Origin: Xylanimonas cellulosilytica DSM 15894 | Lineage (GTDB): Bacteria > Actinomycetota > Actinomycetes > Actinomycetales > Cellulomonadaceae | Assembly (NCBI RefSeq): GCF_000024965.1 | Contig: NC_013530.1 | Location: forward strand, 1,240,001-1,304,000 | Length of the DNA stretch: 64,000 nt | Direction: 5' to 3' | Part shown: positions 37,253 through 56,786 of the stretch, piece after piece | How the letters are laid out: each line of letters begins with the position of its first letter | Numbering within the stretch: the first letter of the stretch is position 1 | Translations under genes and position numbers: made by a program | Notes under the pieces: generated by a model | Databases searched by the model: none | What the model was told of the DNA's origin: nothing | The model's input: only the letters and a program-made list of their open reading frames with translations

Positions 37253-37261
37253 CGCACCCGT

Positions 37262-39609: not shown

Positions 39610-40779
39610 ATGCCCACCACCGACGTCCCGGCCCCTCAGGTCCGCCCCGGTCACGAGACCACGCCCGTCGCCCTGCAGATGGCGCCGCGCCGCGCCGTCA
39701 AGGCGCCCCGCCACTTCGCCGACCTCACGCACGCGGAGCGGGTTGCCGCCGTCGCGGAGCTGGGGCACCAGGGCTTCCGGGCGAAGCAGCTCGCCACGCA
39801 CTACTTCGCGCACTACACCACCGACCCCGCAGACTGGACCGACATCCCCGCGGCGGCCCGCGAGGGCATGGCTGCCGCGCTGTTCCCGCCGCTCCTGACG
39901 GCCCGCCGAACGCTCGAGGCGGACAAGGGGACGACGGTCAAGACGCTGTGGGGCCTGCACGACGGCACCCGCATCGAGTCGGTCCTGATGCGCTACCCGC
40001 GCCGCTCCACCCTGTGCATCTCCAGCCAGGTCGGGTGCGGCATGGCGTGCCCGTTCTGCGCGACCGGACAGCTCGGGTTCACCCGCAACCTGTCGGCGGC
40101 GGAGATGCTGGAGCAGGTGCGGCTCGCCATGCGCTCGCTCGCGCTCGGCGAGATCCCGGGTGGTCCCACCCGCCTGAACAACCTGGTCTTCATGGGCGAG
40201 GGCGAGGGCCTGATCAACTACCGGGCGATCATGACGTGCATCCGCACGCTCGTCGCGGACGCGCCCGAGGGCTTCGGCATGAGCGCGCGCAACATCACCG
40301 TCTCGACGGTGGGTCTGGTCCCGGGCATGAAGAAGCTCGCGGCCGAAGGGCTGCCGCTCACGCTGGCGCTCAGCCTGCATGCGCCCGACGACGACCTGCG
40401 CAGCGAGCTCGTGCCCATCAACACGCGGTTCAGCGTCGACGAGGCGCTGGACGCGGCCCGCGCGTACTTCGAGGCGACGGGACGCCGGGTGTCGATCGAG
40501 TACGCCCTGATCAAGGACATGAACGACCACGCCTGGCGCGCCGACCTGCTGGGCACCAAGCTCAACGCCCGCGGCAAGGGGTGGGTGCACGTGAACCCGA
40601 TCCCGCTCAACCCGACTCCCGGATCGATCTGGACGGCGTCGGAGCGTGCCGTCGAGGACGAGTTCGTCGCTAGGCTGCGGGGGCACGGCATCCCGACGAC
40701 GGTGCGGGACACCCGTGGATCGGACATCGACGGCGCCTGCGGGCAGCTGGCCGCCGAGGAGGAAGAGGGAGACGCATGA
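39610..40779 (+). CDS. rlmN: 23S rRNA (A2503-C2)/tRNA methyltransferase RlmN
   Basis: Radical SAM enzyme methylating A2503 of 23S rRNA and A37 of some tRNAs. The 389-residue protein has the cluster motif C143-x3-C147-x2-C150 ([17 protein letters not shown]), the methyl-carrying C-terminal Cys377 (DIDGACGQL), and INPIPLNP-like [10 protein letters not shown]. The usual GMGEP SAM-binding motif reads G196-E-G-E-G200 here ([11 protein letters not shown]), an unusual change. ATG 39610 follows AAGGAAGTCCCCTCC. It overlaps the next gene by 4 bp. Confidence 0.93.
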
Positions 40780-41330
40780 GCAGCGCGCTGTTCGGCACCG
40801 TGTCGGTGCTCAAGACCGGGTACGACAAGGACGAGGTGGACGAGTTCTTCGACCACGCCCGGCAGGCGTACGAGGGGCGTACCGCCCAGCCTCTGACGGC
40901 CGGTGAGATCCAGCAGGCGACGTTCGACCTGGTGCGCGGCGGCTACGACACCCACGAGGTGGACGCGGCCCTCGACCGTCTGGAGTCGGCCTTCGTCGGT
41001 CGCCAGCGCGCGGAGTTCGTGGGCGCGCACGGCCAGGAGGCGTGGATGGCTGCGCTCGCCGAGCGTGCCCGCACCCTGTACGGCCGGTTGGGTCGCCCGG
41101 ACGGCGACCGGTTCGCCCCGGCCGACCGCGGGCAGCAGGGCTACGACAAGGACGACGTGGACGCGCTGTGCGACCGCCTGGTGGGGTACTTCGACCGCCA
41201 GGAGCCGCTGACCTCTGCCGAGGTGCGGGCCGCGACGTTCGGTGCCGCCCGCGGCGACGACGCCTACGCCGAGGGCCCGGTCGACGCGTTCTTCGCGCGG
41301 GCCGTCGAGGTCCTGCTCGGCGTCGAGTGA
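40776..41330 (+). CDS. DivIVA-domain repeat protein
   Basis: A 184-residue protein with three copies of the short DivIVA N-terminal motif: [14 protein letters not shown] (~15-28), [15 protein letters not shown] (~55-69) and [18 protein letters not shown] (~123-140). A long coiled coil is absent. It overlaps rlmN by 4 bp. DivIVA-domain proteins bind curved membranes or partner proteins at cell poles; this small version has no assigned role. In related genomes it lies between rlmN and dxr; here 20 kb of accessory DNA intervenes. Confidence 0.82.
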
Positions 41331-41346
41331 CCTGCGGGCAGCCGCG

Positions 41347-41991
41347 GTGAGGGTCGACCCGGACGGGCGCACCGTCCAGGGCGTGACCGTGCTGATCCTC
41401 TTCGCCGTGCTCAACGTGCTCTTCCTGATCACGTGCCTGCCGGTGGTGACGATCGGTGCGGCGACGAGCTCGCTGCTCGAGGTGACCCACCGCTACGCCG
41501 ACGACGAGCGCGGCGACCTGGTGCGGGGCTATCTGGCGGCGCTGCGCCGCAACCTCGGTCGGGGCACCCTCGTGTTCCTCGCCCTCGGCGTCCCCGCCGT
41601 GATGCTGGTGTTCAGCGCGGTGTTCTGGTTCTCGCTGGACGGCATCCTCACGGCGGTGGCCGGCGGGCTGTCCGCGCTGGGGGCGGCGTTCGTGCTCGCG
41701 GCGTTGCTCTACGGGCTCGCCCTCGTGGGCACGCACCTGGCCCCGCTGAGGCAGACGCTGCGCAACGCCCTGCTGCTGCCGCTGGCGGAGCCCGCGCGCA
41801 CGGGGGCGCTGGTGCTGATCCCGCTCACCGGACTCCTGCTTCTGTACGTGTGGCCCGCGTCGTGGGTGCTCGCCGTGACGGTCGGCTTCTCCGTGGGCGC
41901 CTACTTCCAGGCGCTGGTCCTGCGCGGGGTGTTCGCCCGCCAGAGCGGCGCCGCGCCCTCCGGGCCGGTCAGCCCGCACTCGGGGGAGTAG
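41347..41991 (+). CDS. YesL-like (DUF624) membrane protein
   Basis: A 214-residue protein with about five transmembrane helices beginning VTVLILFAVLNVLFLITCLPVVTIG (two stretches), the DUF624/YesL signature, and a conserved TSSLLEVTHRYADDERGDLVRGYLAALRRN loop read in two parts. DUF624 genes commonly accompany CUT1 sugar ABC transporters and may assist them; the role is unknown. GTG 41347 lies 16 bp after the DivIVA-protein stop. Convergent with the solute-binding protein gene across a shared terminator. Confidence 0.75.
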   Translation: MRVDPDGRTVQGVTVLILFAVLNVLFLITCLPVVTIGAATSSLLEVTHRYADDERGDLVRGYLAALRRNLGRGTLVFLALGVPAVMLVFSAVFWFSLDGILTAVAGGLSALGAAFVLAALLYGLALVGTHLAPLRQTLRNALLLPLAEPARTGALVLIPLTGLLLLYVWPASWVLAVTVGFSVGAYFQALVLRGVFARQSGAAPSGPVSPHSGE

Positions 41992-42005
41992 CCGCAACCT
42001 CCGAA

Positions 42006-42053
42006 CCGACGACGAAGGGGGAGGCCCATCAGGGCCTCCCCCTTCGTCGTCGG
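42006..42053. terminator. Bidirectional terminator between YesL-like and sugar-binding protein genes
   Basis: A perfect 22-bp stem (42006-42027 and 42032-42053) with a 4-nt loop ATCA. Because the ends carry AAG-rich and CTT-rich runs, it can terminate both convergent units. It is the strongest hairpin in the window. Confidence 0.92.
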
Positions 42054-42081
42054 TGGATCACCGGGTCAGCGGGTCACCGAA

Positions 42082-43845
42082 TCACTGGGCGAACGCGTCC
42101 ACGACGGCCTCGCGGGCCTCGTTCTGCGCCTCCGCGTTGGCCATGTCGACCTCGAGCACCTTGGCGTAGCCCAGGCCCTCGGCCGTGGACTGCAGCTGGG
42201 CGAGCAGCGAGTCGAACTCGGCCTGGTCCTTCGCGTAGACCATCTTCCAGGAGTACTCCACGACGCTGGCCTTGACCTGGTTGCGGATCGTCTCGATCTC
42301 CGAGGAGTCGGCCGGGGTGGTGAAGCCGGAGCCGGGGGCCACGAGCACCTGGTCGTTCTTGACGAGGTAGTCCATGGTCGAGGTGGCGTCGTCCATGTGG
42401 GCCGACCAGTCGTCGGTCAGCGCCGTGCCGGTGATCTCCTGCACCGAGGGCCAGTACTTGTAGTTGTACTCGTAGCCGGTCTTCGGGTCCGTGTCGATCG
42501 GCAGCACCGTGGTGACGTTGAGCGCGGAGACGCCGTCGGCGTACTTGCCGCCGCCCCACTCGGCGGGGACGTCGCCGTCGCCACCGAGGATCGCGGCCTT
42601 GCCGAAGTCGGTGAGCTCAGGCTGGTCGCCCACGAGCTCCCACGTCAGGCCCTCGGGGCCGGCGGCACCCATGGTCTGGTTGCCGGAGGCGAGGACGCCC
42701 TCGCGCGAGTACAGCCAGTCGACGAACGCGGCGATGCGGTCCGGGTCCTCGGCGTGCGATCCGATGGCGAGGACCTGCTTGCCGCCGTAGACCTCGGCGC
42801 CGTAGGAGAAGATCTCCTGGTCGGCCAGCGGCACCATTTCGAAGCCCTTGCCGGCCTCGAGGTTGGCGGTGGTGTTGTAGGCCGACTGGCCGAGCCACGG
42901 CCACCACGACAGGAGCACCTGGCCGTTCTGGTACTTCGCGAACATCGTGTCGTAGTTCTGCGTCGTCGACTCCGGGTCGAGGATGCCGAGCTGGTTGGCG
43001 TCGAAGTAGAGCTGGAGCGAGCGCACGTACGCCGAGTCGGAGTCGATGATGCTCTGGTACTCGGAGCCGTCGGCCTTGGCCAGGACGAAGCCCATCTCGT
43101 CGAAGCCGTAGAGGCACGCGGGCTGCTTGCCCATCACCATCATGTTGCCGTCCCAGTCCTTGAAGAGGGACAGGCCGTACGTCGGGCCGCCGTTGTCGGC
43201 CGTCGGGTGGGCGTCCTGCATCTCCTTGAGGATGGGCAGCAGGTCTTCGAGCGTGCCGATCTCCGGGTAGCCGGCGTCGGCGTAGTAGTCCCAGCGCAGG
43301 TACGCGCCGAACGTGGGGTCGATGCCCTCGGAGGGTGCGGTCGGCGGGAGCGTCGACACCTGCGTCGGGAGCCCGTAGATGCCGTCCTTGCCGTCGTTGA
43401 GCCGCTGCACTGCGGCGTCGTACTGCGAGACGCTCTCCATCGAGCCGTAGTACTTGGACACGTCGAGCAGCAGGCCGCCGGCGATGAGCTCGTCCATCTT
43501 CTCGCCCTTGTCGGTGATGATGAGGTCACCGAGGTCGCCGCCCGCGACGCGCGTGTTGTAGAGCGTGTCACCGCCGCCCGCGACGTTCGGGGCGATGATG
43601 TTGAGCTCCATGTTGAACTTGTCCTTGACGAGCTTGCCGAACCACCCGGACTGGATGCCCTGGTAGTTGGCCAGCCCGTCGAACACGTCGATGGTGATGG
43701 GGTCGGACGTCGACCAGTCCTGGTCGAGCGCGACGGGCTCGGCCGACGTGTCGTCCTCGGCGTTCGCGCCGGAGGAACAGGCCGTCAGGGTCAGCGCCCC
43801 GAGGACCGGAGCCATCAGCAGGGCGATGGCCTTCTTCGATCGCAT
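42082..43845 (-). CDS. Sugar ABC transporter solute-binding lipoprotein
   Basis: A 587-residue extracellular solute-binding protein (family 1, LipO/YtcQ-like long form). A lipoprotein signal peptide (MRSKKAIALLMAPVLGALTL) ends at the lipobox LTAC (Cys23). The mature part has many Trp and Tyr residues, typical of oligosaccharide sites (LSWWPWLGQSAYN, YEWN-like runs). Third gene of the permease-permease-binding protein operon; ATG 43845 follows AGAAAGGCACGAC, 33 bp after the second permease. The long form, and its glycosidase neighbours, suggest an oligosaccharide ligand. Confidence 0.9.
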   Translation of the reverse strand: MRSKKAIALLMAPVLGALTLTACSSGANAEDDTSAEPVALDQDWSTSDPITIDVFDGLANYQGIQSGWFGKLVKDKFNMELNIIAPNVAGGGDTLYNTRVAGGDLGDLIITDKGEKMDELIAGGLLLDVSKYYGSMESVSQYDAAVQRLNDGKDGIYGLPTQVSTLPPTAPSEGIDPTFGAYLRWDYYADAGYPEIGTLEDLLPILKEMQDAHPTADNGGPTYGLSLFKDWDGNMMVMGKQPACLYGFDEMGFVLAKADGSEYQSIIDSDSAYVRSLQLYFDANQLGILDPESTTQNYDTMFAKYQNGQVLLSWWPWLGQSAYNTTANLEAGKGFEMVPLADQEIFSYGAEVYGGKQVLAIGSHAEDPDRIAAFVDWLYSREGVLASGNQTMGAAGPEGLTWELVGDQPELTDFGKAAILGGDGDVPAEWGGGKYADGVSALNVTTVLPIDTDPKTGYEYNYKYWPSVQEITGTALTDDWSAHMDDATSTMDYLVKNDQVLVAPGSGFTTPADSSEIETIRNQVKASVVEYSWKMVYAKDQAEFDSLLAQLQSTAEGLGYAKVLEVDMANAEAQNEAREAVVDAFAQ

Positions 43846-43878
43846 GTCGTGCCTTTCTGGTGGGGAAGGGTGGCGGCG

Positions 43879-44823
43879 TCAGCCCTTGACGGCGCCGAGC
43901 ATGATGCCCTTGACGAAGTACCGCTGGAACAGGGGATAGACGAAGACGATCGGCAGCACGACGATCACGGCGACCGTCATGCGGATGGACGTCGGTGTCT
44001 GCGAGGTGGCCGCGGAGGCGATGATGCCGAGGTTCCCCTGGGCGTTCTGGGCGGCCTGGGCCAGGCTGGAGGCCTGGTTGATGAACATGTAGAGCAGGTA
44101 CTGCAGCGAGTAGAGCTTCTGGTCGGTGATGTAGAGCAGCGTGTCCTGGAACGAGTTCCACTGGGCCACGGCCGAGAAGATCGCCACGGTCGCCAGGATC
44201 GGCGTCGTGTTGGGCAGGATGATCGAGAAGAAGATGCGCAGCGTGCTCGCGCCGTCGACCTCGGCGGCCTCCTGCAGGGAGCGCGGCAGCGACTCGATGT
44301 ACGTCTTGACGAGGATGACGTTGAACGGCTGCACGATGGCCGGGAGGATGTACACCCAGAACGAGTTGGTCAGCCCGAGCGTCTTCATCGTCACGTAGAC
44401 GGGGATGAGCCCGGCGTTGAAGTACATCGTGATGACGACGAGCCGGTACCACAGGGAACGCTTCCACATGCGCTCCTGGGTGAACATGAACCCGAGGAAC
44501 GCCGAGGCCAGCACCGTGGCGGCGGTGCCGATGACCGTGCGGGCGACCGACACGATCGCCGCCGTCGACAGGCCGTTGAGCTGGAGGATCTGCGAGTAGT
44601 TCGACAGGTGGAGGCCCCGCGGCCACAGGCGGATGTCGCCCGCGGCGCTCAGGTCGTTCGCGCTGACGGAGTTCACCACCAGGTACCAGAACGGGTACGC
44701 GCACAGCAGCGCGAAGAGCGCGAACCACAGGTAGTTCCAGCCGGCGAAGACGCGGTCGCCCTTCTCGCGCTGGACCGGGATCGAGCGGCGCAGCACCTGC
44801 GCCGGCGGCGTCGTGGCAGTCAC
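43879..44823 (-). CDS. Carbohydrate ABC transporter permease (LplC/MalG type)
   Basis: A 314-residue inner-membrane permease with six predicted helices and the EAA loop EAAEVDGASTLRIFFSIILP, which contacts the ATPase. The C-terminus FQRYFVKGIMLGAVKG is typical of LplC-type CUT1 permeases. GTG 44823 follows GAAGGGCTCCCC, 10 bp after the first permease. No ATPase gene is in the locus, so a shared MsiK-type ATPase elsewhere is expected. Confidence 0.93.
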   Translation of the reverse strand: MTATTPPAQVLRRSIPVQREKGDRVFAGWNYLWFALFALLCAYPFWYLVVNSVSANDLSAAGDIRLWPRGLHLSNYSQILQLNGLSTAAIVSVARTVIGTAATVLASAFLGFMFTQERMWKRSLWYRLVVITMYFNAGLIPVYVTMKTLGLTNSFWVYILPAIVQPFNVILVKTYIESLPRSLQEAAEVDGASTLRIFFSIILPNTTPILATVAIFSAVAQWNSFQDTLLYITDQKLYSLQYLLYMFINQASSLAQAAQNAQGNLGIIASAATSQTPTSIRMTVAVIVVLPIVFVYPLFQRYFVKGIMLGAVKG

Positions 44824-44833
44824 GGGGAGCCCT

Positions 44834-45856
44834 TCAGATGATCGACGTGCCGCGCACGCGCTTGGCGATGCCGTTGGCCGCGAGCAGCAGCAGCACCGAG
44901 ACGATGGACTTGAGCATGCTCAGCACGGCGGCCATGGACAGGCTGTTGCCGGTGAGGCCGATGTTGTACACGTACAGGTCGAGCACCTGGATGTGCTGCT
45001 TGTTGAAGGCGTTCTGGAACACGTAGTACTGCTCCATCCCGTTGTTGAGGATGTTCGCGATGGAGAGCATGAGCAGCACGATGTACGTGGGCATGAGCTG
45101 CGGGAACGTGATGTACCGCATGAGCTGGAAGCGGTTCGCGCCGTCGATGCGCGCCGACTCGTACAGGGTCGGGTCGATGCCGGCGATGGCGGCGAGGTAC
45201 ATGATCGCGCCCCAGCCCAGGCCCTTCCACAGGCTCCAGAGCAGCATCGTCAGCCAGACGTGCTCGCCGGAGTCGAGGAACTTGATCGGCATCGTGATCA
45301 GGCCCCAGTCGGCGAGCGTGGAGTTGACCAGGCCCGACGTCGAGAAGAGCGAGAAGGCGATCGCGTAGACGAGCACCCAGGAGATGAAGTTGGGCAGCGT
45401 CGTCAACGTCTGCACCGCGTTGCGGAACCACTTGGCCCGCACCTCGTTGAGCAGCATCGCGAAGAACAGCGGCAGCAGCGACGTCGCGATGCCGAGGAAG
45501 CTCATCGCGAGCGTGTTGGCCATGACCTGGCCGATCTGCTCGAGCTGGGTGCGGCTGGAGACCAGCATTCGGAACCACTGCAGGCCGACGAACTCGCTGC
45601 CGCCGATCCCGAGGGCCGGCTTGTAGTCGAACAGCGCCGTCGCCCAGCCCGCGAGGGGCAGGTAGCTGAAGGCGAACACCAGCACGAGGAACGGCAGCAC
45701 GAGCAGGAACATCGAGCGGGAGGTCCGCGGCCTGGGGGCCGAACCCTTCGGCTTCCGCGGCGATGCCGTGCGGCGCCGCATCGAGCGGCGTGCTCGCGGG
45801 GCGTCGGCGACGCCGTCGAGAAGCACCCCGGTAGGTGCCCCCTGTTGGAGGGTCAC
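44834..45856 (-). CDS. Carbohydrate ABC transporter permease (LplB/YteP type)
   Basis: A 340-residue inner-membrane permease. After a basic N-terminal extension of about 45 residues come six helices and the EAA-like loop YESARIDGANRFQLMRYITFPQL (two stretches). It pairs with the LplC-type permease. GTG 45856 follows AAGGAGTGAATC. First gene of the transporter operon, behind a promoter with an operator palindrome. Confidence 0.93.
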   Translation of the reverse strand: MTLQQGAPTGVLLDGVADAPRARRSMRRRTASPRKPKGSAPRPRTSRSMFLLVLPFLVLVFAFSYLPLAGWATALFDYKPALGIGGSEFVGLQWFRMLVSSRTQLEQIGQVMANTLAMSFLGIATSLLPLFFAMLLNEVRAKWFRNAVQTLTTLPNFISWVLVYAIAFSLFSTSGLVNSTLADWGLITMPIKFLDSGEHVWLTMLLWSLWKGLGWGAIMYLAAIAGIDPTLYESARIDGANRFQLMRYITFPQLMPTYIVLLMLSIANILNNGMEQYYVFQNAFNKQHIQVLDLYVYNIGLTGNSLSMAAVLSMLKSIVSVLLLLAANGIAKRVRGTSII

Positions 45857-45921
45857 GATTCACTCCTTCGTGCGGAACCACCCAGCGGTGAACGCTCACA
45901 TCGCGCGACCGCCGCGCTCTT

Positions 45922-45939
45922 CGTCGAAGCGCTTCGACG
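45922..45939. promoter_or_regulatory. LacI-family operator upstream of the transporter operon
   Basis: CGTCGAAGCGCTTCGACG is a perfect 18-bp palindrome with the CG centre typical of LacI operators. The predicted transcription start (about 45933) falls inside it. The same core, CGAAGCGCTTCG, occurs at 49673-49684. A half-site GCTTCGACG lies at 45952-45960. Confidence 0.8.
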
Positions 45940-45969
45940 TTTATAGCAGCGGCTTCGACGCCGCCGCAA
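45940..45969 (-). promoter_or_regulatory. Promoter of the sugar transporter operon
   Basis: On the minus strand, TTGCGG (45969-45964), an 18-bp spacer and TATAAA (45945-45940). It lies next to the operator palindrome, so repressor binding would block initiation. Confidence 0.65.
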
Positions 45970-46049
45970 GGGGTGGCCGGGGACGTTCCGAAATCGAGAC
46001 ATTCCGCGCGCGGGCCGCGCGGGCCGGGGGCCTGCGCGGCCGCTCGGGC

Positions 46050-47060
46050 TCAGTGCCCGCCCGGTGCCCGGGTGCTCGCGCGCGTCGTCAGCGTCGGCGC
46101 CAGCAGGCGGGTCTCCGCCGGGTAGCCGCTGTCGGTCAGGCGTGCCATCACCATGTCGACAGCCAGGGAGCCGATCGTGTGCGCGGGCAGGTCGATGCTC
46201 GTGAGCGCGACCTGCTGCGACAACGCGGTCTCCTCGGGGCACAGCGCGATCACCGACAGGTCGCGCGGCACCGAGCGGCGGTGCTCCCGCAGCCGGTGGA
46301 GCACGTGGGGCAGGGCGCGCTCGTTGTGCACGAACAGCCCGGTCAGCCCTGGTGCGTCCGCCAGCAGCCGGTCGACGACGTCGTCGACGTCGTTGGGCGT
46401 GGCGGGGCAGGCGACGGCCCGGGCGGCGACGCCTGCCTCGGCCGCGCCGGTCAGGAACCCGCGCGTGACGCGCTCCGCGTAGGAGGTGTGCCGCTCGTGC
46501 ACCTCGGGCGGGGATCCCACCAGCGCGATGTCGCGGTGCCCGAGGCTCGCGAGCTCCAGGGCGGCGAGCCGGCCGGCCGCCTCGAAGTCGAGGTCGATGC
46601 ACGACAGTCCCGCCGCCAGGCGTGGCAGGCCGATGAGGACGGCCGGCTGCTTGGAGCGACGCAGGATCGGCACGCGGGCGTCGTCGGCCTCCACGTCCAT
46701 GACCACCAGGGCGTCGACCATGGCACCGTCCGTGACCCGCTCGAGCCCTTCCAGGTCGTCCTGCGTGAGCAGCAGCACGTCGTGCGCGTGCTCCCGCGCC
46801 CGCAGCACCACGCCGCCCGCGAACTGCATGATCACCGCGACGTCGATGCCCGCGCGCATCGGCACCATGAGCCCGATGACCTCGCTGCGCGCCGACGCCA
46901 GCGCCTTGGCGCCCGCGTGCGGCCGGTACCCGAGCTCGGCGACGGCCGCCTCGATGCGCCGCCGCGTCGCCGCCGAGATCGGTCGCTTGCCCGACAGCGC
47001 GTAGGACACCGTCGAGGTCGAGACGGCGGCGAGGCGGGCGACGTCCTCGATCGTGGGCAT
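46050..47060 (-). CDS. LacI-family repressor of the xyloglucan-type locus
   Basis: A 336-residue LacI/GalR regulator: HTH TIEDVARLAAVSTSTVSYAL (3-22) with hinge KRPISAATRRRIEAAVAELGY, and an effector domain including VHNERALPHVLHRL, LSVIALCPEE and the closing TSIDLPAHTIGSLAVDMV. It probably binds the CGAAGCGCTTCG palindromes near 45930 and 49678, releasing on a sugar from the imported oligosaccharide. ATG 47060 has GAGGAG 7 bp upstream, overlapping the GH95 stop, so the two are coupled. Confidence 0.92.
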   Translation of the reverse strand: MPTIEDVARLAAVSTSTVSYALSGKRPISAATRRRIEAAVAELGYRPHAGAKALASARSEVIGLMVPMRAGIDVAVIMQFAGGVVLRAREHAHDVLLLTQDDLEGLERVTDGAMVDALVVMDVEADDARVPILRRSKQPAVLIGLPRLAAGLSCIDLDFEAAGRLAALELASLGHRDIALVGSPPEVHERHTSYAERVTRGFLTGAAEAGVAARAVACPATPNDVDDVVDRLLADAPGLTGLFVHNERALPHVLHRLREHRRSVPRDLSVIALCPEETALSQQVALTSIDLPAHTIGSLAVDMVMARLTDSGYPAETRLLAPTLTTRASTRAPGGH

Positions 47061-47070
47061 GGTGGGCTCC

Positions 47071-49584
47071 TCAGGCAGCGGTGGGGGTGAGCGTGGTGCT
47101 CCCCCCGGCGGGGACGGTCACGGAAGCGGGCAGGGGCGAGGCGGTCGGCAGGGTCGGCCCAGCCGCAGTCTGCGGCCCGACGACGACGGCGCGGGTCGTC
47201 GTGCTCGGCGTGTCGTTGTGCACGCGGGCCGAGACCAGGGCGCCGTCGGCCCACGTGAGGTCGACGCGCAGGCCGCCGCGAGCCCGCAGACCGCGCACCG
47301 CGCCGTCGGGCCACGCCGCGGGCAGGGCGGGCAGCAGCCGCAGCACGCCGTCGTGGCTCTGCAGCAGCGCCTCGGCGACCGCGGCCGTGAGGCCGAGGTT
47401 GCCGTCGACCTGGAAGGGCGGGTGCGCCGCGAACAGGTTGGGGTACAGGCCGCCGCGGTGCTCCGCGCCACCGGGTGCGACCGCCGGGCGCTGCGCCCGC
47501 CGCAGCGTGGCGTGGACCCGCTCGCCGTCGCCGAGGCGCGCCCACAGCGCGGCGCGCCAGGCGAGCGACCAGCCCGTGGACTCCGGGCCGCGCAGCTCGA
47601 TCGAGCGGGCCGTCGCGGCCGCGAGACCGGGCGTCCGCCACGGCGTCACCGACGCGAGCGGGAAGGCGCCCACCAGGTGCGAGACGTGCCGGTGCTCGGG
47701 CTCCGCCTCGGCCACCGGCGCGGCCCACTCCAGCAGCTCGCCGCGCGGGCCGACCTCCGGCGCGGGCAGCAGCGCGGTCACCTTCGCGAGGTCGTCGAGC
47801 CAGTCCTCGGACACGCCCAGCGCGTCCGCGGCCGCCCGGCAGGCCGCGGCGAGCCAGCGCAGCAGCTCGCCGTCCATCGTCGCGCTCGTGCCCACCCCGG
47901 TCGGTCGGCCGTCCGGCGCCACGTAGTGGTTCTCCGGGGACGTCGACGGGCTGGTCCACGCCCGCGTGCCGTCGGACTGCACCCAGTCCAGTGCGAAGAG
48001 CCCTGCCCCGCGCAGCACCGGCCAGGCCCGCTCGCGCAGGAACGTCGCGTCCCCGCCGAACAGCCAGCGTTCCCACAGGTGGTGGGCAAGCCAGACGCCG
48101 CCCAGCGCCCAGCTCGCCCACGCCGGGTCGCCGTGCCCGGCACCCACCGGGTCCGCGTGGCCCCACGCGTCGCTGTTGTGGTGCGCCACCCAGCCGCGTG
48201 CTCCGTAGAGCCGTCGCGCCGCCTCCGGTCCCGTCGTCGTCGCCAGCCGCTCGACGAAGGCCAGCAGCGGTTCGTGGCACTCGGGCAGGGCCGTCGTCTC
48301 CGCCGGCCAGTACGCCATCTGGAGGTTGATGTTCGTGGTGTAGGCGCTCGACCAGGGGCCCGGCAGCAGCGGGTTCCAGATCCCCTGGAGGGTTGCGGGC
48401 AACCCGCCGGGTCGCGAGGAGGCCAGCAGCAGGTAGCGCCCGTAGTGGAAGGCGAGCGCGGTCAGGCCGGGGTCGTCCACGTCCGCCGCCGCGGCGATAC
48501 GGGCGTCCGTGGGGAGGGTGTCGGCGCCCGACGACGACGGCAGCGTCAGCTCCACCCGGTCGTACAGCGCGCGGTGCGCGGCCTCGTGGGCGGCCCGGCG
48601 TGGGGAGGCGGGCTCCGGGCCGGTCACGAGCGCGAGCGCCGCCGCGACGGCCTCGGTCGGGGTGGCCTGGGTACCCGCGGCCGGGTCGTGGGTCGTGGCG
48701 GTGCCGATCAGCAGCAGGTGCGCCGTCGCCGCGCCCGTGCGCAGCTCGCCGTCCTCGACGACGGCGTCCGGGTCGCCCGCCGCCCGCACCGCGACCACCA
48801 GGCGCGCCGTCGTCGGGCCGTAGCGGACCGGCTCGGGCGCTGACTCGTGGCCGGGAGCGACGTCGACCGGCGGCACGAGCCGGTGCAGCAGGACGTCCCT
48901 CGGGGCAGGTGCGTCGACGCCGGGTGCGGCGGCATCGGGTGCGGCGGCGGCCACGGGCACGGCGCCGGCGTCGCTCTCGGCACGCAGCAGGCTGGTGAAC
49001 CGTGCGGTGAGCCGGACCGGACGGTCGGCGGTCACGACGTGGACCAGCGCCCCGCCCGCGGCGTCGGCCCAGGTCTCGTGCCGCACGCGGGCGGCCCCGA
49101 GCGCGTACGAGTGCGCGGCGACGGCCGTGCGCAGGTCGAGCGACCGGGCGTGGGCGCCGCCCGGGGCGGCCAGCTCGTCGCCCACCGCGGTGACCGTGAC
49201 CTCGAGCTCGCCGAGCGGCAGGTACGCCTGCACCCACGGCGACTGGGACTCCTGGAGCAGGCGCTCGGCGGTCCGCACGTCGCCGTCGTCGATCGCGGCG
49301 CGGACGGCCGCCAGGTGCTCGGGACCGGCGGCCGCACGGCGGCTCGCGGCGGCAGGGTCCTCGGCGGCGGGGTCCTGCGAGGCGGAGTCCTGGGCGGCGG
49401 GCACCGGTGCGTCGACGTCGCCGCGCGGCCCGGCGCCGACCGGGCCGGACCAGGCGCGCAGGTCGTTGAGCCACAGTCGCTCGCCGCCCGCACGCCCCTC
49501 GCACATGGCGGCTCGCACGCCGTTGCCGACGGGCAGCGCCTCGTCCCAGCAGGTCGCGGGGGAGTCGTATCTCAGGTGGTGCAT
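47071..49584 (-). CDS. GH95 family alpha-L-fucosidase (or alpha-L-galactosidase)
   Basis: An inverting glycosidase of about 837 residues with the GH95 layout: N-terminal beta-sandwich ([22 protein letters not shown], two stretches), linker, (alpha/alpha)6 barrel with [18 protein letters not shown] and [16 protein letters not shown] (catalytic-region Asn418 and Asn420), [32 protein letters not shown], and a C-terminal beta domain. No signal peptide, so cytoplasmic. ATG 49584 is preferred; the frame opens upstream to 49650 into the promoter region. Expected to remove alpha-1,2-fucose from galactose of xyloglucan fragments. In operon with lacI. Confidence 0.88.
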
Positions 49585-49639
49585 CGCGTTCTCACGTCGT
49601 CGTGGGCCAGGTGGATCGTGCTCGCGGGGCGGGTCCACG

Positions 49640-49670
49640 TAGACAACCACGACCCCTCGGTGCTTAGGTT
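49640..49670 (+). promoter_or_regulatory. Promoter of the GH42-GH31-GH3 operon
   Basis: TAGACA (49640-49645), 19-bp spacer, TAGGTT (49665-49670); predicted start near 49677, inside the operator. The divergent GH95 promoter must use the same 125-bp gap, but no clear hexamers were found for it. Confidence 0.5.
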
Positions 49671-49672
49671 AG

Positions 49673-49684
49673 CGAAGCGCTTCG
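49673..49684. promoter_or_regulatory. LacI-family operator in the GH95/GH42 divergent promoter
   Basis: CGAAGCGCTTCG, a 12-bp perfect palindrome (extended GCGAAGCGCTTCGAC), is shared with the transporter operator at 45922-45939. It lies at the predicted start point of the GH42 operon and within reach of the GH95 promoter. Confidence 0.8.
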
Positions 49685-49709
49685 ACAAAGTCATCGATGG
49701 AGATCTCGG

Positions 49710-51764
49710 GTGCCACACATCATGGACCGCCTCACCGCGGAACTCGGCCTGCTGTACGGGGGCGACTACAACCCCGAGCAGTGGGACCCGTCGGTGTGGC
49801 GCGAGGATGCCAGGCTCATGCGCGAGGCGGGCGTGAACCTCGTGACCGTCGGCGTCTTCTCCTGGGCGCGCTACGAGCCCGAACCCGGTGTGCGCGACTT
49901 CGCGTGGCTCGACGAGGTGCTCGACGTGCTGCAGGCGCACGGCATCGCCGTCGACCTGGCGACCCCGACGGCGTCGCCGCCGCCGTGGCTGGGCATCGAC
50001 CACCCCGAGACCTTGCCCGTGGACCGCGACGGCGTGCGCCTGGTGGCGGGGTCCCGCAACCAGTTCGCCCCGTCGTCGCGCGTGTACCGCGAGGCGGCCC
50101 TGGCCATCACGTGCGACCTCGCCGCCCGCTACGCCCGGCACCCCGCGGTGCGCATGTGGCACGTCGGGAACGAGTACGGGCAGGTCGACTTCGGTGACGA
50201 GGCTGCGCGGGAGTTCCGCGCCTGGCTGCACGACCGCTACGGCAGCATCGACGCGCTCAACGAGGCGTGGGGCACGGCCTTCTGGTCCCAGCGGTACCGC
50301 GACTTCGAGGACGTGCTGCCGCCGCGCCGTGCGCCGTACCTGGTCAACCCCACGCAGGCGCTCGACTTCCGGCGCTTCACCTCCGACGAGCTGCTGGCCT
50401 GCTACCGCGAGCAGCACGCCGCGCTGCGCGAGGCGGGGGTCACCGCGCCGATCACCACCAACTTCATGGGCTTCTTCCCGGGTGCGGACTACTGGCGGTG
50501 GGCGGATGCGGTCGACGTCGTCGCCGACGACCAGTACCCCGACCACGCCGACCCCCGCTCGCCGGCCGATGCCGCGCTCGTCCAGGACCTCATGCGCGGG
50601 CTCGGCGGGGGTGCGCCCTGGCTGCTGCTCGAACAGGCCGCCGGGGCGACGTCGTGGCGGGAGCACAACCTGCCCAAGTCGCCGGAGCGGATGCGCCTCG
50701 ACTCGCTGCAGGCCGTGGCCCGCGGCGCGGACGGCGTCTGCTTCTTCCAGTGGCGGGCCTCGACGGCCGGGGCCGAGCGGTTCCACTCGGCGATGCTGCC
50801 GCACGCCGGCCCGGACACGGCGGTGCACCGCGGGGTCCGCCGCCTGGGCACCGACCTCGCCCGCCTGCACCCGGTGATCGGCTCCCGCGTGGCGGCCCGC
50901 ACCGCGCTGCTGTTCGACTGGGAGTCGTGGTGGGCCGCGGAGGAGCCCGGCCGCATCACCGAGCGGTTGCGCACCCTCGACCAGGTCCGCGCGTACTACC
51001 GCCCGCTGTGGGACCGCGGTGTCGCCGTCGACGTCGTGCGGCCCGGTGCCGCCCTCGACGCGTACGACGTCGTCGTCGTCCCGCAGACCTATCTGCTCGA
51101 CGACGACGCCGCGACGTCGCTGCGGGCCGCGGCCGAGGGCGGCGCCTGCGTCGTCGTCGGGCCGATGACCGGGGTCGCGGACCGCAACGCGCACGTGCTG
51201 CCGGGCCGGTTCCCCGTACGGCTCGCGGACGTGCTCGGCGTCAGCGGCGAGGAGTGGGTCGCGTTGCCCGACGGCGGCGTGCCGGTCACGGGCGCACTGG
51301 TCACGGGCACGCCGGGCAAGGGGAGCGCGCACACCCACGCCGAGCTGCTGCGCGCCGACGACGCCGAGGTGCTCTCCCGCTTCGCCGACGGCCACCTCGC
51401 CGGGGCACCCGCGGTCACACGGCGCGACGTCCCCGGTGGCGGCGCGGCCTGGTACGTCGGCGCCGTCCTCGACGAGCCGCTGCTGGCGGCGGTGCTCGAC
51501 GACGCGCTGACCCGCGCGGGCGTGCCCGCCGCGGTGCCCGGCGCCGTCGGGCTCGACGACGTCGAGGCCGTGGTCCGCGGCGACGTCGTCTTCCTCCTCA
51601 ACCGGGGCGGGGAGACCGCGCGCGTCGCGGTGCCCGGCACCTGGACCGACCTGCTCACGGGCGACGACGTGATCGACGTCGTCGACCTGCCCCCGCACGA
51701 CGCCGCGGTGCTGCACCCGGCCCAGCCACGGAACCAAGGAACGGGTGACGATGAAGTTCACTGA
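49710..51764 (+). CDS. GH42 beta-galactosidase
   Basis: A 684-residue retaining beta-galactosidase, cytoplasmic. GH42 features: GLLYGGDYNPEQWDPSVWRED (two stretches) near the start, acid/base Glu155 in WHVGNEYG, nucleophile Glu308 in LLLEQAAGATSW, a GATase-like trimerisation domain (~390-600, YDVVVVPQTYLLDD) and a small C-terminal beta domain. GTG 49710 has GGAG 7 bp upstream; ATG 49722 is an alternative. Overlaps the GH31 gene by 14 bp. Expected to remove galactose from de-fucosylated xyloglucan oligosaccharides. Confidence 0.93.
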   Translation: MPHIMDRLTAELGLLYGGDYNPEQWDPSVWREDARLMREAGVNLVTVGVFSWARYEPEPGVRDFAWLDEVLDVLQAHGIAVDLATPTASPPPWLGIDHPETLPVDRDGVRLVAGSRNQFAPSSRVYREAALAITCDLAARYARHPAVRMWHVGNEYGQVDFGDEAAREFRAWLHDRYGSIDALNEAWGTAFWSQRYRDFEDVLPPRRAPYLVNPTQALDFRRFTSDELLACYREQHAALREAGVTAPITTNFMGFFPGADYWRWADAVDVVADDQYPDHADPRSPADAALVQDLMRGLGGGAPWLLLEQAAGATSWREHNLPKSPERMRLDSLQAVARGADGVCFFQWRASTAGAERFHSAMLPHAGPDTAVHRGVRRLGTDLARLHPVIGSRVAARTALLFDWESWWAAEEPGRITERLRTLDQVRAYYRPLWDRGVAVDVVRPGAALDAYDVVVVPQTYLLDDDAATSLRAAAEGGACVVVGPMTGVADRNAHVLPGRFPVRLADVLGVSGEEWVALPDGGVPVTGALVTGTPGKGSAHTHAELLRADDAEVLSRFADGHLAGAPAVTRRDVPGGGAAWYVGAVLDEPLLAAVLDDALTRAGVPAAVPGAVGLDDVEAVVRGDVVFLLNRGGETARVAVPGTWTDLLTGDDVIDVVDLPPHDAAVLHPAQPRNQGTGDDEVH

Positions 51765-54165
51765 CGGCTACTGGAAGGCGCGCCGCGGCGTGACGCCGCT
51801 CTACGCGGTGGAGGTCGACGACGTCCGCGTCGACGAGGCCGCCGGGACCATGACCGTGTTCGCGCCGACCACCCGCATCCGCCACCGCGGCGACACGCTC
51901 AACCGCCCGATGCTGACCGTCGACCTGTCGGCGCCCGCCCCGGGCGTCGTAAAGGTGCGCATCACGCACCACGCGGGGGCGGCCGAACGGGGCCCACGCT
52001 TCCCGGTCGCGGCGCGGGAGGGCTACGCACCGATCCTCAAGCTCGACGACGCCGAGGGGGTTCTCGACGCCGACGGCCTGACGGTGCGTGTGCGGCGCAC
52101 GGGCCCGTGGCGCATCGAGTTCGAGCAGGACGGCCGCCCGCTGACCTCCTCGCTGCCCAAGTCGGTGGGCTACCTGACCTCCGACGGCACGGGGCCGCTG
52201 CCCGCGGGCTCGTGGGTGCACGAGCAGCTCACGCTCGACCCGGGGGAGAGCGTCTACGGGCTGGGCGAGCGGTTCGGCGCGTTCGTCAAGAACGGGCAGG
52301 AGGTCGACGTCTGGAACGAGGACGGCGGCACCTCCAGCGAGCAGGCGTACAAGAACGTGCCGTTCTACCTGTCCTCGAAGGGGTACGGCGTCTTCGTCGC
52401 CCACACCGAGAAGGTCTCGTTCGAGGTGGGTTCCGAGGTCAACACCCGCACCCAGTTCTCGGTCGCCGGGCAGTCCCTCGAGTACTACGTGATCGCCGGC
52501 CCCACGCCCAAGGACGTGCTGCGCCGCTACACCGCGCTGACCGGGCGGCCGGCCCGCGTGCCCGCGTGGTCGTTCGGCCTGTGGCTGTCGACGTCGTTCA
52601 CGACGTCGTACGACGAGGCGACCGTCACGAGCTTCATCGACGGGATGCGCGAGCGGGAGATCCCGCTGTCGGTGTTCCACTTCGACTGCTTCTGGATGCG
52701 CGAGTACCAGTGGTGCGACTTCGAGTGGGACCCGCGCGTCTTCCCCGACCCGGTGGGCATGCTCGCCCGGCTGCACGAGCGAGGCCTCAAGGTCTGCGTG
52801 TGGATCAACCCCTACATCGGGCAGCGGTCGCCGCTGTTCGCCGAGGGTGCCGCAAAGGGCTACCTGCTCCAGACGGCCGCCGGCGGCGTGTGGCAGTGGG
52901 ACCAGTGGCAGGCCGGCATGGGGCTGGTGGACTTCACCAACCCCGAGGCCACCGCCTGGTACGTCTCGAAGCTCGAACGGCTCATCGACCAGGGCGTCGA
53001 CACCTTCAAGACCGACTTCGGCGAGCGCATCCCGGTCGACGACGTCGTCTGGCACGACGGGTCGGACCCGCAGCGGATGCACAATTACTACACGCAGCTC
53101 TACAACGAGGCCGTCTTCGGGCTGCTGGAGCGGCGGCGCGGCACGGGCGACGCCGTGCTGTTCGCCCGGTCCGCGACCGCGGGCGGGCAGCGGCTGCCCG
53201 TGCACTGGGGCGGCGACAACGACTCGACCTACGCGTCGATGGCCGAGACGCTGCGCGGCGGGCTCTCGCTCGCGCTGTCCGGTTTCGGGTACTGGTCGCA
53301 CGACATCGGCGGGTTCGAGGGCACCCCGGACGCCGGGGTGTTCAAGCGGTGGCTGCCGTTCGGCCTGCTGTCTTCGCACTCGCGCCTGCACGGCAACACC
53401 TCCTACCGGGTGCCGTGGGCGTTCGACGACGAGGCCGTGGACGTGGCCCGGCGCTTCACCCGGCTCAAGCTCTCGCTCATGCCCTACCTCGCCCGGCTGG
53501 CCGAGGAGGCGCACACCGACGGCACCCCGATGCTGCGCCCGATGGTCCTGGAGTTTCCGGACGACCGGGGCGCGCACCCCGTGGACACGCAGTTCATGCT
53601 GGGCGACGCGCTCCTGGTCGCCCCCGTGTTCGGCGCGGCCGGCGACGTCGAGGTGTACGTGCCCGAGGGCACGTGGACGTCGCTGCTCGACGGGTCGACC
53701 GTGACCGGGCCGCGGTGGGTGCGCGAGACGCACGGCTACGGTTCGCTCCCGCTGTACGTGCGCCCCGGCACCGTGCTGCCGGTCGGCGCCCGCGACGACG
53801 CCCCCGAGTACGCCTGGGCCGACGGCGTCACCCTGCACGCCTTCGAGCTGCCGGACGGGTTCGACCAGTCCGTCACCGTCCCGGGCGGCACCGGGGCGCC
53901 GGCCACGTTCCGCGTCCGGCGCACGGGCGACCGCGTGACCGCCTGCACCGACGACGCGGCCGGTGCGTGGGGCCTGCGCGCCGGGGCGTGGTTCGTGCGG
54001 TCCGAGGGCCCGGGCGAGCTCGGCATCGGGCTCACGGCCGACGACGACGCGGGGGCCGACGACGCCGCCGCGGGTTCCGCCGACGCGGTCGAAGTTTCCA
54101 CCGGCGCCGCCACGGGTTCCGCCGCCGCCGCGGCTTCCACCGACGCCGAGGAGGCGACCCGATGA
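51751..54165 (+). CDS. yicI: GH31 alpha-xylosidase (YicI type)
   Basis: An 804-residue retaining glycosidase. It starts MKFTDGYWKARRG as E. coli YicI does (MKISDGNW). Catalytic motifs are PLSVFHFDCFWMREYQWCDF, FKTDFGERIPVDD (nucleophile Asp422) and GGDNDSTYASM (acid/base Asp489), the arrangement of alpha-xylosidases acting on isoprimeverose-type units. A disordered Ala/Asp tail (~765-804) is unusual. No signal peptide. ATG 51751 has AAGGA 10 bp upstream. It overlaps GH42 by 14 bp and GH3 by 4 bp. Expected to remove alpha-1,6-xylose from xyloglucan oligosaccharides. Confidence 0.93.
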   Translation: MKFTDGYWKARRGVTPLYAVEVDDVRVDEAAGTMTVFAPTTRIRHRGDTLNRPMLTVDLSAPAPGVVKVRITHHAGAAERGPRFPVAAREGYAPILKLDDAEGVLDADGLTVRVRRTGPWRIEFEQDGRPLTSSLPKSVGYLTSDGTGPLPAGSWVHEQLTLDPGESVYGLGERFGAFVKNGQEVDVWNEDGGTSSEQAYKNVPFYLSSKGYGVFVAHTEKVSFEVGSEVNTRTQFSVAGQSLEYYVIAGPTPKDVLRRYTALTGRPARVPAWSFGLWLSTSFTTSYDEATVTSFIDGMREREIPLSVFHFDCFWMREYQWCDFEWDPRVFPDPVGMLARLHERGLKVCVWINPYIGQRSPLFAEGAAKGYLLQTAAGGVWQWDQWQAGMGLVDFTNPEATAWYVSKLERLIDQGVDTFKTDFGERIPVDDVVWHDGSDPQRMHNYYTQLYNEAVFGLLERRRGTGDAVLFARSATAGGQRLPVHWGGDNDSTYASMAETLRGGLSLALSGFGYWSHDIGGFEGTPDAGVFKRWLPFGLLSSHSRLHGNTSYRVPWAFDDEAVDVARRFTRLKLSLMPYLARLAEEAHTDGTPMLRPMVLEFPDDRGAHPVDTQFMLGDALLVAPVFGAAGDVEVYVPEGTWTSLLDGSTVTGPRWVRETHGYGSLPLYVRPGTVLPVGARDDAPEYAWADGVTLHAFELPDGFDQSVTVPGGTGAPATFRVRRTGDRVTACTDDAAGAWGLRAGAWFVRSEGPGELGIGLTADDDAGADDAAAGSADAVEVSTGAATGSAAAAASTDAEEATR

Positions 54166-56786
54166 GCATCGACCCGACCGACGTCGCGCCGCCGCCCCCC
54201 GCGCCGTCGGACCTCGCGCCGTCGGCCCCTGCGTCGTCGGACCTCGCGCCGTTCCGCGACCCCGGCCTGCCCGCCATCGACCGGGCCAAGGATCTGCTGG
54301 CCCGCCTGACCCGCGAGGAGCGGGTGGCGATGCTCCACCAGCACGCGCCCGCCGTCGAGCGCCTGGGGCTGGCCCCGTTCCACACGGGCGCCGAGGCGTT
54401 GCACGGCGTCGCCTGGCTGGGCCGGGCCACGGTGCTGCCGCAGGCCGTGGGCCTGGGCGCCACCTGGGACCCGGACCTCCTGGAGCGCCTGGGCGAGCTG
54501 GTGGCCACGGAGCAGCGGGCCAAGCACGCCGAGGACCCGCAGGTCTCCCTCAACGTGTGGGCGCCCGTGGTGAACACGCTGCGCCACCCCGCCTGGGGGC
54601 GCAACGAGGAGGGGTACGCCGAGGACCCGCACCTCACCGCGCACCTGGCGACCGCGTACTGCCGCGGCCTGCGCGGCGACCACCCCACGGTGTGGAAGAC
54701 CGTGCCGACGCTCAAGCACTTCCTCGGGTATGGCAACGAGACCGACCGTTCGTCGACGTCGTCGAACCTCTCGCAGCGCACCCTGCACGAGGAGGAGCTC
54801 GCCGCGTTCCGCGAGCCGATCGAGCAGGGCGTGGCCGGGGCCGTCATGCCGTCCTACAACCGGGTCAACGGGGAGCCCGCGCACACCAGCGGCGCGCTGT
54901 TCGACGAGCTGCGCTCGTGGGCGCCCGACGAGATCGCGCTGGTCTCCGACGCGTGGGCGCCCACAGCGCTGGTGACGGTGCAGCGTGCCTTCGCCGACCA
55001 CGTCGAGTCGCACGCGGCCGCGCTGCAGGCGGGCCTCGACTCGTTCACCGACGGGGACGCCGCGTCGACGGACACGGTCGAGCGGCTCACGCAGGCGCTC
55101 GACCGCGGCCTGGTCACCGAGGCCGACGTCGACCGGGCGGTGCTCCGGCTGCTGCACCTGCGCGTGCGCACGGGGGAGTTCGACGCCGCCACGAACGGTG
55201 GCCCCGCCGACCCGTACGCGGGGATCGGCGCCGACGCCATCGACCTGCCCGCGCACCGCGTGCTGGCCCGGGAGGCGGCGGCCAAGTCCGTCGTCGTGCT
55301 CACGAACGACGGAGTGCTGCCGCTCGCGTCCCCACGACGCGTCGCCGTCGTCGGGCCGCTCGCCGACGCCGTGCTGACCGACTGGTACTCGGGCACCCCG
55401 CCCTACGCCGTGACGCTCGCCGACGGCCTGCGCGAGCGGTACCCGGACGCGACCGTCACCGCCGTGGGCGGCCACGACGTCGTGGCGCTGCGCGCCACGA
55501 GCACCGACGGCTACCTGGTGGCGAGCGAGGACGGCGCGGCCGTCGCCGCCGACGGCGCCACCGGCGACGGGCCCGCGCTGTGGGACCTGACCGACTGGGG
55601 CGACGGGATCGTCACCCTGCGCTCGCAGGCCTCGACCCGCCTGCTGACCGGTGCGGGCTGGCCCGCCCGCGCCGACGCCGACCGCGTGGGCGGCTGGGTG
55701 GTCCAGGAGTCGTTCCGCCGGCACCTGCACCCGGACGGCACCGTCTCCCTGCAGCACCTCGGGTCGAACCGGTGGCTGCGCGTCACGCGCGGCACCCTCC
55801 TGGCCGGGTGCGACGGGACGAGCGTCGAGGAGGCGGAGCGGTTCGTGCTGCGTACCGTCACGTCCGGGCACGAGTCCGTGCGTGCGGCCGCGGCAGGCGC
55901 CGACGTCGTCGTGGTCGCCGTCGGCAACGATCCGCACCTGTCCGGGCGTGAGACCCAGGACCGGCCGCACCTGCGGCTGCCCGAGTGCGCTGCCGAGCTG
56001 CTGCGCACGGCGCAGGAGGCGAACGCGAGCACCGTGCTCGCGATCGTGTCGTCCTTCCCGTACGTGCTGCCCGCGGCCGCGCGCCGGGCGCGGGCCGTCG
56101 TGTGGAGCAGCCACGGCGGGCAGGAGCTCGGGCACGGGCTCGTCGACGTGCTGTCGGGTGACGTCGAGCCGTACGGGCGCCTGGCCCAGCAGTGGCCCGT
56201 GGACGAGGCGCAGCCGGGCGACCTCCTCGACTACGACACCCACGCCCAGAAGGCCACCTACCGGCACACCGACCGCGAGCCCGCGTTCGCGTTCGGGCAC
56301 GGGCTGACGTACTCGGACGTCGCCTACGGCGGGCTCACGCTGTCGACGCCGAGGGTCCCGGCGCCGGCTCCGACCCTGCGGCACGCCCCGCTCGGCGCCG
56401 GCGGCGAGGCCGGTCCAGGCGGCGACGGTGCGGTGTCCGTGACCGTGGAGGTGGCCAACGCCGGTGAGCGGCCCGCCGACGAGCTGGTGCAGGTGTACGC
56501 GCTCGGCCCGCAGGACCTGCCGCTCGCTACCCCGCGCCGGCTGCTGCTCGGCTTCCGTCGCGTGCGGCTCGCACCGGGGGAGAGCCGGGACGTGACGATC
56601 ACGGTCGACGTCGCACGGCTCGCCGTGTGGGACCCGGACGCACGGGTGGACGGAGCAAGGGCGGACGGGGCAGCGGCGGGCTGGCTGTACGAGGGCGCGC
56701 TGCGGGTGCAGCCCGGCGAGTACCGGATCGCCGCCGGCCCGTCGTCGTCGGACCTGCCGAGCGTCGCGCTGCTGACGGTGGGGTGA
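54162..56786 (+). CDS. GH3 beta-glucosidase/beta-xylosidase with beta-trefoil-like insert
   Basis: An 874-residue GH3 enzyme without signal peptide. After a Pro/Ser-rich N-terminus (~1-30): a TIM barrel with GAEALHGVAWLG, KHFLGYGNETDR, GAVMPSYNRVNGEPAH and nucleophile Asp263 in LVSDAWAP, then the beta-sandwich (VVLTNDGVLPL, VVVVAVGNDPHLSGRETQDRP), split by an insert at ~440-566 (VVALRATSTDGYLVASEDG, RWLRVTRGTLLAG) resembling a fascin-like beta-trefoil rather than PA14. A C-terminal FN3-like domain follows. In this locus it would hydrolyse glucose from the freed backbone. It overlaps GH31 by 4 bp (ATGA). Confidence 0.9.
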   Translation: MSIDPTDVAPPPPAPSDLAPSAPASSDLAPFRDPGLPAIDRAKDLLARLTREERVAMLHQHAPAVERLGLAPFHTGAEALHGVAWLGRATVLPQAVGLGATWDPDLLERLGELVATEQRAKHAEDPQVSLNVWAPVVNTLRHPAWGRNEEGYAEDPHLTAHLATAYCRGLRGDHPTVWKTVPTLKHFLGYGNETDRSSTSSNLSQRTLHEEELAAFREPIEQGVAGAVMPSYNRVNGEPAHTSGALFDELRSWAPDEIALVSDAWAPTALVTVQRAFADHVESHAAALQAGLDSFTDGDAASTDTVERLTQALDRGLVTEADVDRAVLRLLHLRVRTGEFDAATNGGPADPYAGIGADAIDLPAHRVLAREAAAKSVVVLTNDGVLPLASPRRVAVVGPLADAVLTDWYSGTPPYAVTLADGLRERYPDATVTAVGGHDVVALRATSTDGYLVASEDGAAVAADGATGDGPALWDLTDWGDGIVTLRSQASTRLLTGAGWPARADADRVGGWVVQESFRRHLHPDGTVSLQHLGSNRWLRVTRGTLLAGCDGTSVEEAERFVLRTVTSGHESVRAAAAGADVVVVAVGNDPHLSGRETQDRPHLRLPECAAELLRTAQEANASTVLAIVSSFPYVLPAAARRARAVVWSSHGGQELGHGLVDVLSGDVEPYGRLAQQWPVDEAQPGDLLDYDTHAQKATYRHTDREPAFAFGHGLTYSDVAYGGLTLSTPRVPAPAPTLRHAPLGAGGEAGPGGDGAVSVTVEVANAGERPADELVQVYALGPQDLPLATPRRLLLGFRRVRLAPGESRDVTITVDVARLAVWDPDARVDGARADGAAAGWLYEGALRVQPGEYRIAAGPSSSDLPSVALLTVG

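Follow-up and report, generated by a model that had tools for sequence, protein, structure and literature searches.

A probable xyloglucan-oligosaccharide utilisation locus with putative LacI operators in Xylanimonas cellulosilytica

We analysed a stretch of 64,000 nucleotides of the Xylanimonas cellulosilytica DSM 15894 genome (contig NC_013530.1, positions 1,240,001 to 1,304,000; hereafter the window), in which positions 41347-56786 are filled by nine genes encoding four glycoside hydrolases (GH95, GH42, GH31 and GH3), a CUT1-type ATP-binding cassette (ABC) importer with a long solute-binding protein (SBP), a YesL-like DUF624 protein and a LacI-family repressor. These genes very probably form a xyloglucan-oligosaccharide utilisation locus controlled by the local repressor. 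What carries this reading is observed directly in the sequences, namely the gene content, the operators, the distribution of the operators over whole genomes and their conservation at the GH74 genes of relatives. We also favour, with rather less confidence, a wider proposal, in which the repressor is dedicated to xyloglucan, its operator TCGAAGCGCTTCGA unites secreted GH74 enzymes, the importer, the side-chain enzymes and GH3 in one actinobacterial regulon, and the YesL/DUF624 protein is a dedicated subunit of the long-SBP importer, absent where another importer has taken its place. An earlier note on this DNA had proposed a xyloglucan substrate and an order of degradation from fucose inwards, both of which are well supported by an operator common to the GH74 genes of relatives and by an SBP profile closest, if weakly, to a xyloglucan-binding protein.

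Palindromic operators in the locus and in relatives

Each promoter region of the locus holds a palindrome, found by sequence scan: TCGAAGCGCTTCGA lies before the transporter operon (45924-45937), and GCGAAGCGCTTCGA, which differs from it by one mismatch, in the divergent gap between the GH95 and GH42 genes (49672-49685). By eye, a minus-strand TATAAA can be made out two bases upstream of the transporter operator; the promoter scan did not score it, and promoter and terminator scans gave no result. In the whole genome of 3.83 Mb the 12-base core CGAAGCGCTTCG has two occurrences, one in each of the two promoter regions. Degenerate copies carry little weight, as the 14-mer with up to two mismatches gives 40 sites in this genome against 28 for its reversed control, so that two-mismatch copies are mostly chance, and up to three mismatches in the window give 5 sites against a chance mean of 4.5, with only the two named sites having none or one.

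Exact cores are present in five of the 11 genus genomes scanned for them. The two other genus members that hold the locus, G080 and G090, keep the same two operator sites; in G090 a further site immediately precedes the gene of a secreted GH74 enzyme, the identity of which is firm (PDB xyloglucanases, best match 541 bits), and G080 has three further tandem sites before a second LacI-ABC-GH31 locus. A single exact site each in G051 and G100 is near or in genes unrelated to the locus. Searching a family sample of 101 genomes with the G090 GH74 (E 1e-40 or better) returned 23 GH74 genes in 22 genomes, and 22 of the 23 carry the operator with at most two mismatches within 700 nucleotides upstream of the GH74 catalytic domain (19 with at most one). 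When 234 palindromes shuffled from the same half-site composition were scored in this way, again with two mismatches allowed, they averaged 0.05 of the 23 genes and never exceeded 4. The sole GH74 gene without the operator (L174) is the downstream member of a neighbouring GH74 pair in G017. G090, the source of the GH74 idea, is counted among the 22, and since the species are related the 22 GH74 operators do not represent 22 independent events.

The surroundings of exact 13-mer sites were surveyed in 16 chosen genomes, 14 with GH74 and/or GH95 matches and two genus members with neither. Counted per strand, the 13-mer matches 38 times (18 forward, 20 reverse) and its reversed control 6 times; the 38 matches correspond to 23 distinct sites in 12 of the 16 genomes; none is found in the two genus members lacking GH74 and GH95, in G023 (which has GH95) or in G014 (GH95 and GH74). 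All but one of the 23 sites adjoin GH74, importer or other glycosidase genes: eight precede GH74; seven lie in the transporter/glycosidase cluster (three ahead of a permease gene, two between GH3 and a putative long lipoprotein SBP gene, one between GH95 and GH42, and one ahead of another SBP gene); three precede GH3; and one each precedes a secreted GH5-CBM_X2-CBM46 gene, a GH42-family gene, a GH1 gene and an aldo/keto reductase gene adjoining GH42. The single exact site without such a neighbour is G039:C1:1378608.

A further set was fetched through GH31 and comprises the best 80 of a larger number of named loci, nearly all actinobacterial. The exact core occurs in 53 of these 80, compared to a mean of 0.26 and a maximum of 6 for 89 other palindromes of the same composition, and 11 of the 65 operator sites fall deep inside genes as called by a crude gene caller. 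In 11 Streptomyces loci the core lies 46-146 nucleotides before a lipoprotein gene, which we read as an SBP gene, about 3 kb ahead of GH31. The association of the operator with an orthologue of the window LacI is moderate: among the best 80 loci it is present in 34 of the 43 with such an orthologue (at least 240 bits) and in 19 of the 37 without (Fisher p 0.017, for related sequences).

Two minor sites involve aldo/keto reductases. In the X. cellulosilytica genome a one-mismatch operator at C1:2180426 (L225:2427-2464) lies about 25 nucleotides before an aldo/keto reductase gene, and in G048 an exact operator (L216:15963) precedes an aldo/keto reductase gene followed by another GH42 gene, beside the xyloglucan cluster. 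The G048 site was considered as a marker of L-fucose catabolism and dropped, the neighbouring amidohydrolase (by Pfam) reading as NagA-type and the aldo/keto reductase falling below the NCBIfam cut-offs.

Gene content and proposed pathway

The gene set given in the earlier note was borne out for eight genes by Pfam, with NCBIfam and PDB matches, and for the SBP by its lipobox; lipobox and signal peptides were judged by eye from the translations. The minus strand encodes the SBP lipoprotein (42082-43845, 587 residues, lipobox LTAC), two CUT1-type permeases (43879-44823 and 44834-45856; BPD_transp_1 41.9 and 69.4 bits, respectively), the LacI-family repressor (46050-47060; LacI 62 bits, Peripla_BP_3 108.6 bits) and GH95, a presumed α-1,2-L-fucosidase (47071-49590; Pfam catalytic domain 481.5 bits). 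On the plus strand are the GH42 β-galactosidase (49722-51764; Pfam 470 bits, best PDB match 9ta3 at 540.8 bits), GH31 (51748-54165; Pfam barrel 313.6 bits, PDB YicI 914.8 bits) and GH3, a presumed β-glucosidase acting on xyloglucan oligosaccharides (54162-56786; Pfam N- and C-terminal domains and an Fn3-like domain, with PDB matches), as well as the YesL/DUF624 membrane protein, a relative of MusI (41347-41991; Pfam DUF624 44.8 bits). The start codons of GH95 (49590), GH42 (49722), GH31 (51748) and GH3 (54162) are our choice. An open frame spanning 52107-56786 was rejected as a single gene, GH3 being its second half.

No signal peptide is seen at the N-termini of GH95, GH42, GH31 and GH3, and cytoplasmic-type GH42, GH31 and GH3 are clustered here as in loci of the Ruminiclostridium cellulolyticum type. 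GH31 is a predicted YicI-type α-xylosidase, scoring 1219.9 bits against the NCBIfam α-xylosidase model NF007940, far above the curated cut-off of 606. The motifs FHFDCFWM and KTDFGERIP, singled out in the earlier note, are present in its translation, and in alignment with PDB YicI it retains KTDFGE and HWGGD, which we take to be the catalytic motifs of this type. In GH95 the catalytic residues N-I-N, E and D are conserved (NIN, SPE and QVDGN, in alignment with 4ufc and 7kmq), their roles being those described for BACOVA_03438 (PMC4491172) and XacAfc95 (PMC8245568). The GH3 C-terminal domain contains an insert of about 140 residues (window about 55400-55860) with a ricin-B-like score of 22.6 bits, below the cut-off of 25.6; a ricin-B/β-trefoil-like insert is unexpected in a GH3 enzyme without a signal peptide.

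At the thresholds applied, neither Pfam nor NCBIfam assigned the SBP to a family, and a single-sequence search of the PDB gave no match at E 0.01. Its length fits Cluster G solute-binding proteins. A profile built from the window SBP and seven orthologues has 9PMY as its first PDB match (E 1.4e-4), followed by chains at E of about 0.003, 5gx8 among them; 9PMY is a xyloglucan SBP of Anaerocellum bescii and 5gx8 a glycosaminoglycan-binding protein (PMC12710961). The similarity is weak, yet points toward xyloglucan oligosaccharides as a possible ligand.

Relatives pair the same enzymes with two types of importer, one of the window type, whose permeases are about 70-90% identical to those of the window, and a second CUT1 importer with permeases at 32-37%. 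Across the loci L033-L072, orthologous GH42/GH31/LacI blocks are accompanied by the one importer in some species and by the other elsewhere, as though one had been exchanged for the other. A YesL gene is found no more than 2 kb from the window-type importer in nine of ten distinct loci (the window, G080, G090, G002, G021, G048, L059, L060 and L105; the exception is L063, from Antribacter soli), and near the second type in none of 13 distinct loci of at most about 22 kb, at E 1e-3 (14 rows, of which L055 repeats L035). In the window, YesL adjoins rlmN and a DivIVA-like gene upstream. In G002, G021 and G048 it directly follows GH3, which itself follows an operator, and it is on account of this arrangement and of its proximity to the window-type importer that we assign YesL to the import system. 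MusI is required for maltose uptake in Corynebacterium. Of the NCBIfam models the window protein comes nearest to MusI (NF052431), at 80.9 bits and below the cut-off of 160, and it exceeds the cut-off of Pfam DUF624; together with its position this suggests that YesL/DUF624 is probably an accessory subunit of the importer. In G080 and G090 (L033:15872-17497 and L034:16152-17645) a GH43 gene, lacking in the window, is found between SBP and YesL and could serve arabinosylated xyloglucan. In G048 (L216:4689-8242) a single permease pair is followed by two tandem copies of the long SBP, which share 83% identity.

We propose that a secreted endo-xyloglucanase, own or foreign, would cut xyloglucan into oligosaccharides with a four-glucose backbone, which the lipoprotein SBP would capture and the two permeases import whole, presumably with energy from a shared ATPase whose gene lies elsewhere, the DUF624 protein probably assisting. 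In the cytoplasm GH95 would remove fucose and GH42 galactose, after which GH31 and GH3, if they have the predicted specificities, would alternate in taking xylose and glucose off the non-reducing end. The cellobiose left over may pass to a cellobiose phosphorylase; the genome has two matches to GH94, which we take to be the family of these phosphorylases. LacI would bind the TCGAAGCGCTTCGA operators of the transporter promoter and of the gap between GH95 and GH42 until a product of import releases it.

Competing explanations and the first cut of the polymer

Several observations weigh against this reading. The reversed control of the 12-mer likewise occurs twice in the X. cellulosilytica genome, so it is the location of the operator cores that matters and not rarity alone. 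LacI paralogues may also share the palindrome, the three further copies in G080 preceding a locus with a 36% identical LacI. As for the importer, the SBP match to 9PMY is distant and the predicted fold of the SBP is poor (ColabFold with 8 sequences; predicted local distance difference test, pLDDT, 41.6).

CebR is a repressor of the LacI family. Its Streptomyces regulon resembles the system described here in having a 14-bp palindrome with the same GCGC centre at glycosidase genes, and differs in half-site and in target set (PMC5332605). The window operator is TCGAAGCGCTTCGA, not the CebR box TGGGAGCGCTCCCA. The likeness of the core to this box, of which S. scabies has the variant TGGaAGCGCTtCCA (PMC5332605), together with possible sharing among paralogues and the presence of GH1 and GH42 genes among the sites, could mean that the palindrome acts as a cellulose operator of a general, LacI/CebR-like kind, in which case its occurrence at GH74 genes would be uninformative on xyloglucan. 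We regard this as quite improbable: there are only two exact cores in a genome with three Pfam GH5-type matches, and no GH6, GH9 or GH48 gene was recognised nearest the 23 exact sites, among neighbours not all of which were family-searched. Moreover, in the part of the S. scabies table covered, no CebR box is given for the GH74 gene scab17021 or for the GH5 gene scab1101, whereas the GH6/GH48 neighbours of scab17021 have one (PMC5332605), which fits a separate regulator for GH74.

The substrate could also be a different glycan decorated with fucose or L-galactose, for instance side chains of complex glucuronoarabinoxylan, as GH95 enzymes can act on L-galactose and a B. ovatus xylan locus combines a GH95 α-L-galactosidase with a xylan-specific GH31 (PMC4491172). 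The polymorphic position of the -1 subsite is Thr in the window GH95, as in the B. ovatus enzyme; this residue does not discriminate fucose from L-galactose and is also found in a strict fucosidase (PMC8245568), so that fucose specificity is here presumed. This explanation seems very improbable, given that GH31 scores as the YicI type (the xylan-type GH31 itself was not compared), that no xylanase or arabinofuranosidase family is present among the nine genes and that the operator marks GH74 xyloglucanases in relatives.

A xyloglucan locus might, finally, serve the salvage of pieces freed by other microbes, with no attack of its own on the polymer. GH74 (by the G090 query), GH9 and GH12 were not found in the genome, GH44 and GH16 not having been searched; a search for GH74 with Pfam PF15902 also gave no match, and this model is a poor probe because a true GH74 scores only 32.9 bits. 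One of the three GH5-type matches is a GH5_4-CBM46 protein with a signal peptide by eye, its best PDB match (from which the module names are taken) being BhCel5B at 563 bits, an enzyme reported to be active on xyloglucan (PMC4817029). Its gene has no operator, the best candidate within 500 nucleotides around the start having five mismatches, and in the absence of the other families from the searches the link of the locus to the first cut is missing in this species. A relative in G041, 63% identical, does carry the operator. With a secreted candidate encoded and an operator at its relative, salvage alone is unlikely. We favour a xyloglucan locus in a species that likely performs the polymer-cutting step, as predicted from this gene, though the GH5_4-CBM46 step may lie outside co-regulation with the locus. 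The suggestion that secreted enzymes encoded elsewhere make the first cut is plausible, and in this genome depends on one candidate without an operator.

Relation to known systems and genomic setting

ABC import with all later steps in the cytoplasm had been put forward as a distinct design; it is already known from the R. cellulolyticum precedent published in 2016 (PMC4780118) and the A. bescii xyloglucan SBP. In R. cellulolyticum a specific ABC importer (SBP2458/TMD2456-7) takes up whole oligosaccharides for cytoplasmic GH42, GH31 and GH3 (Gal42A, Xyl31A and Glu3A), with secreted xyloglucanases encoded elsewhere and cellobiose as the end product, presumably for a phosphorylase; the legend of Fig. 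12 in the same paper, on similar clusters in other firmicutes and more distant prokaryotes, lists α-fucosidase genes (PMC4780118). That locus is reported to be regulated by the two-component system XygS/XygR (a 2020 study, cited in PMC8579813). The locus described here differs in having LacI with palindromic operators, in including GH95 and in encoding a DUF624 protein, and no AraC-type two-component regulator is among its nine genes. We see in it the actinobacterial form of an already known xyloglucan-oligosaccharide import pathway, distinguished by its clustered GH95 gene and by LacI taking the place of the two-component activator. The importer of A. bescii (Athe_2052-2054) likewise combines a long SBP and two permeases with no local ATPase (PMC12710961, 9PMY), the SBP sequences being similar only at the weak level given above. 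The Xanthomonas xyloglucan locus XyGUL shares GH95, a β-galactosidase and GH31 acting on the side chain, and differs in its TonB-dependent transporters, its GH35 and a GH74 within the cluster (PMC8245568).

What is new is the evidence for a regulon: the pathway is known, and a regulon of the repressor type is apparently undescribed so far. Our literature search, with most subscription papers and the regulon databases outside its reach, found no paper on the TCGAAGCGCTTCGA operator or on a LacI-type xyloglucan regulon. Neither the 12-mer nor the 14-mer occurs in the texts searched, words that begin with xyloside or xylosid are absent from the main text of a LacI-regulon survey (PMC4052901), and xyloglucan sensing by actinobacteria is not mentioned in the titles or abstract starts covered. 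Actinobacteria contribute substantially to decomposition, and xyloglucan is among the main polysaccharides of plant cell walls. With a short and well-kept operator, actinobacterial genomes can be searched for the regulon and unannotated xyloglucan genes predicted, and the association of DUF624 with one type of importer suggests a role for this family that can be tested.

Housekeeping genes flank the locus, with rpsB, tsf, pyrH, frr, a cdsA-like gene and rlmN before it (window 35390-41991) and dxr and an rseP-like gene after it (61108-63687). The DivIVA-like gene is on the opposite side of the locus in G080 compared to the window and G090. Unlike in the window, a GH3-YesL operon or second GH31 locus lies near putative ATP synthase genes in G021, G002 and G080 (L219, L222 and L224), and these differing genomic places suggest that the locus moves. 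A DUF222 protein (90.4 bits) is encoded at window 59257-60783; this family is frequently associated with 13E12 repeats.

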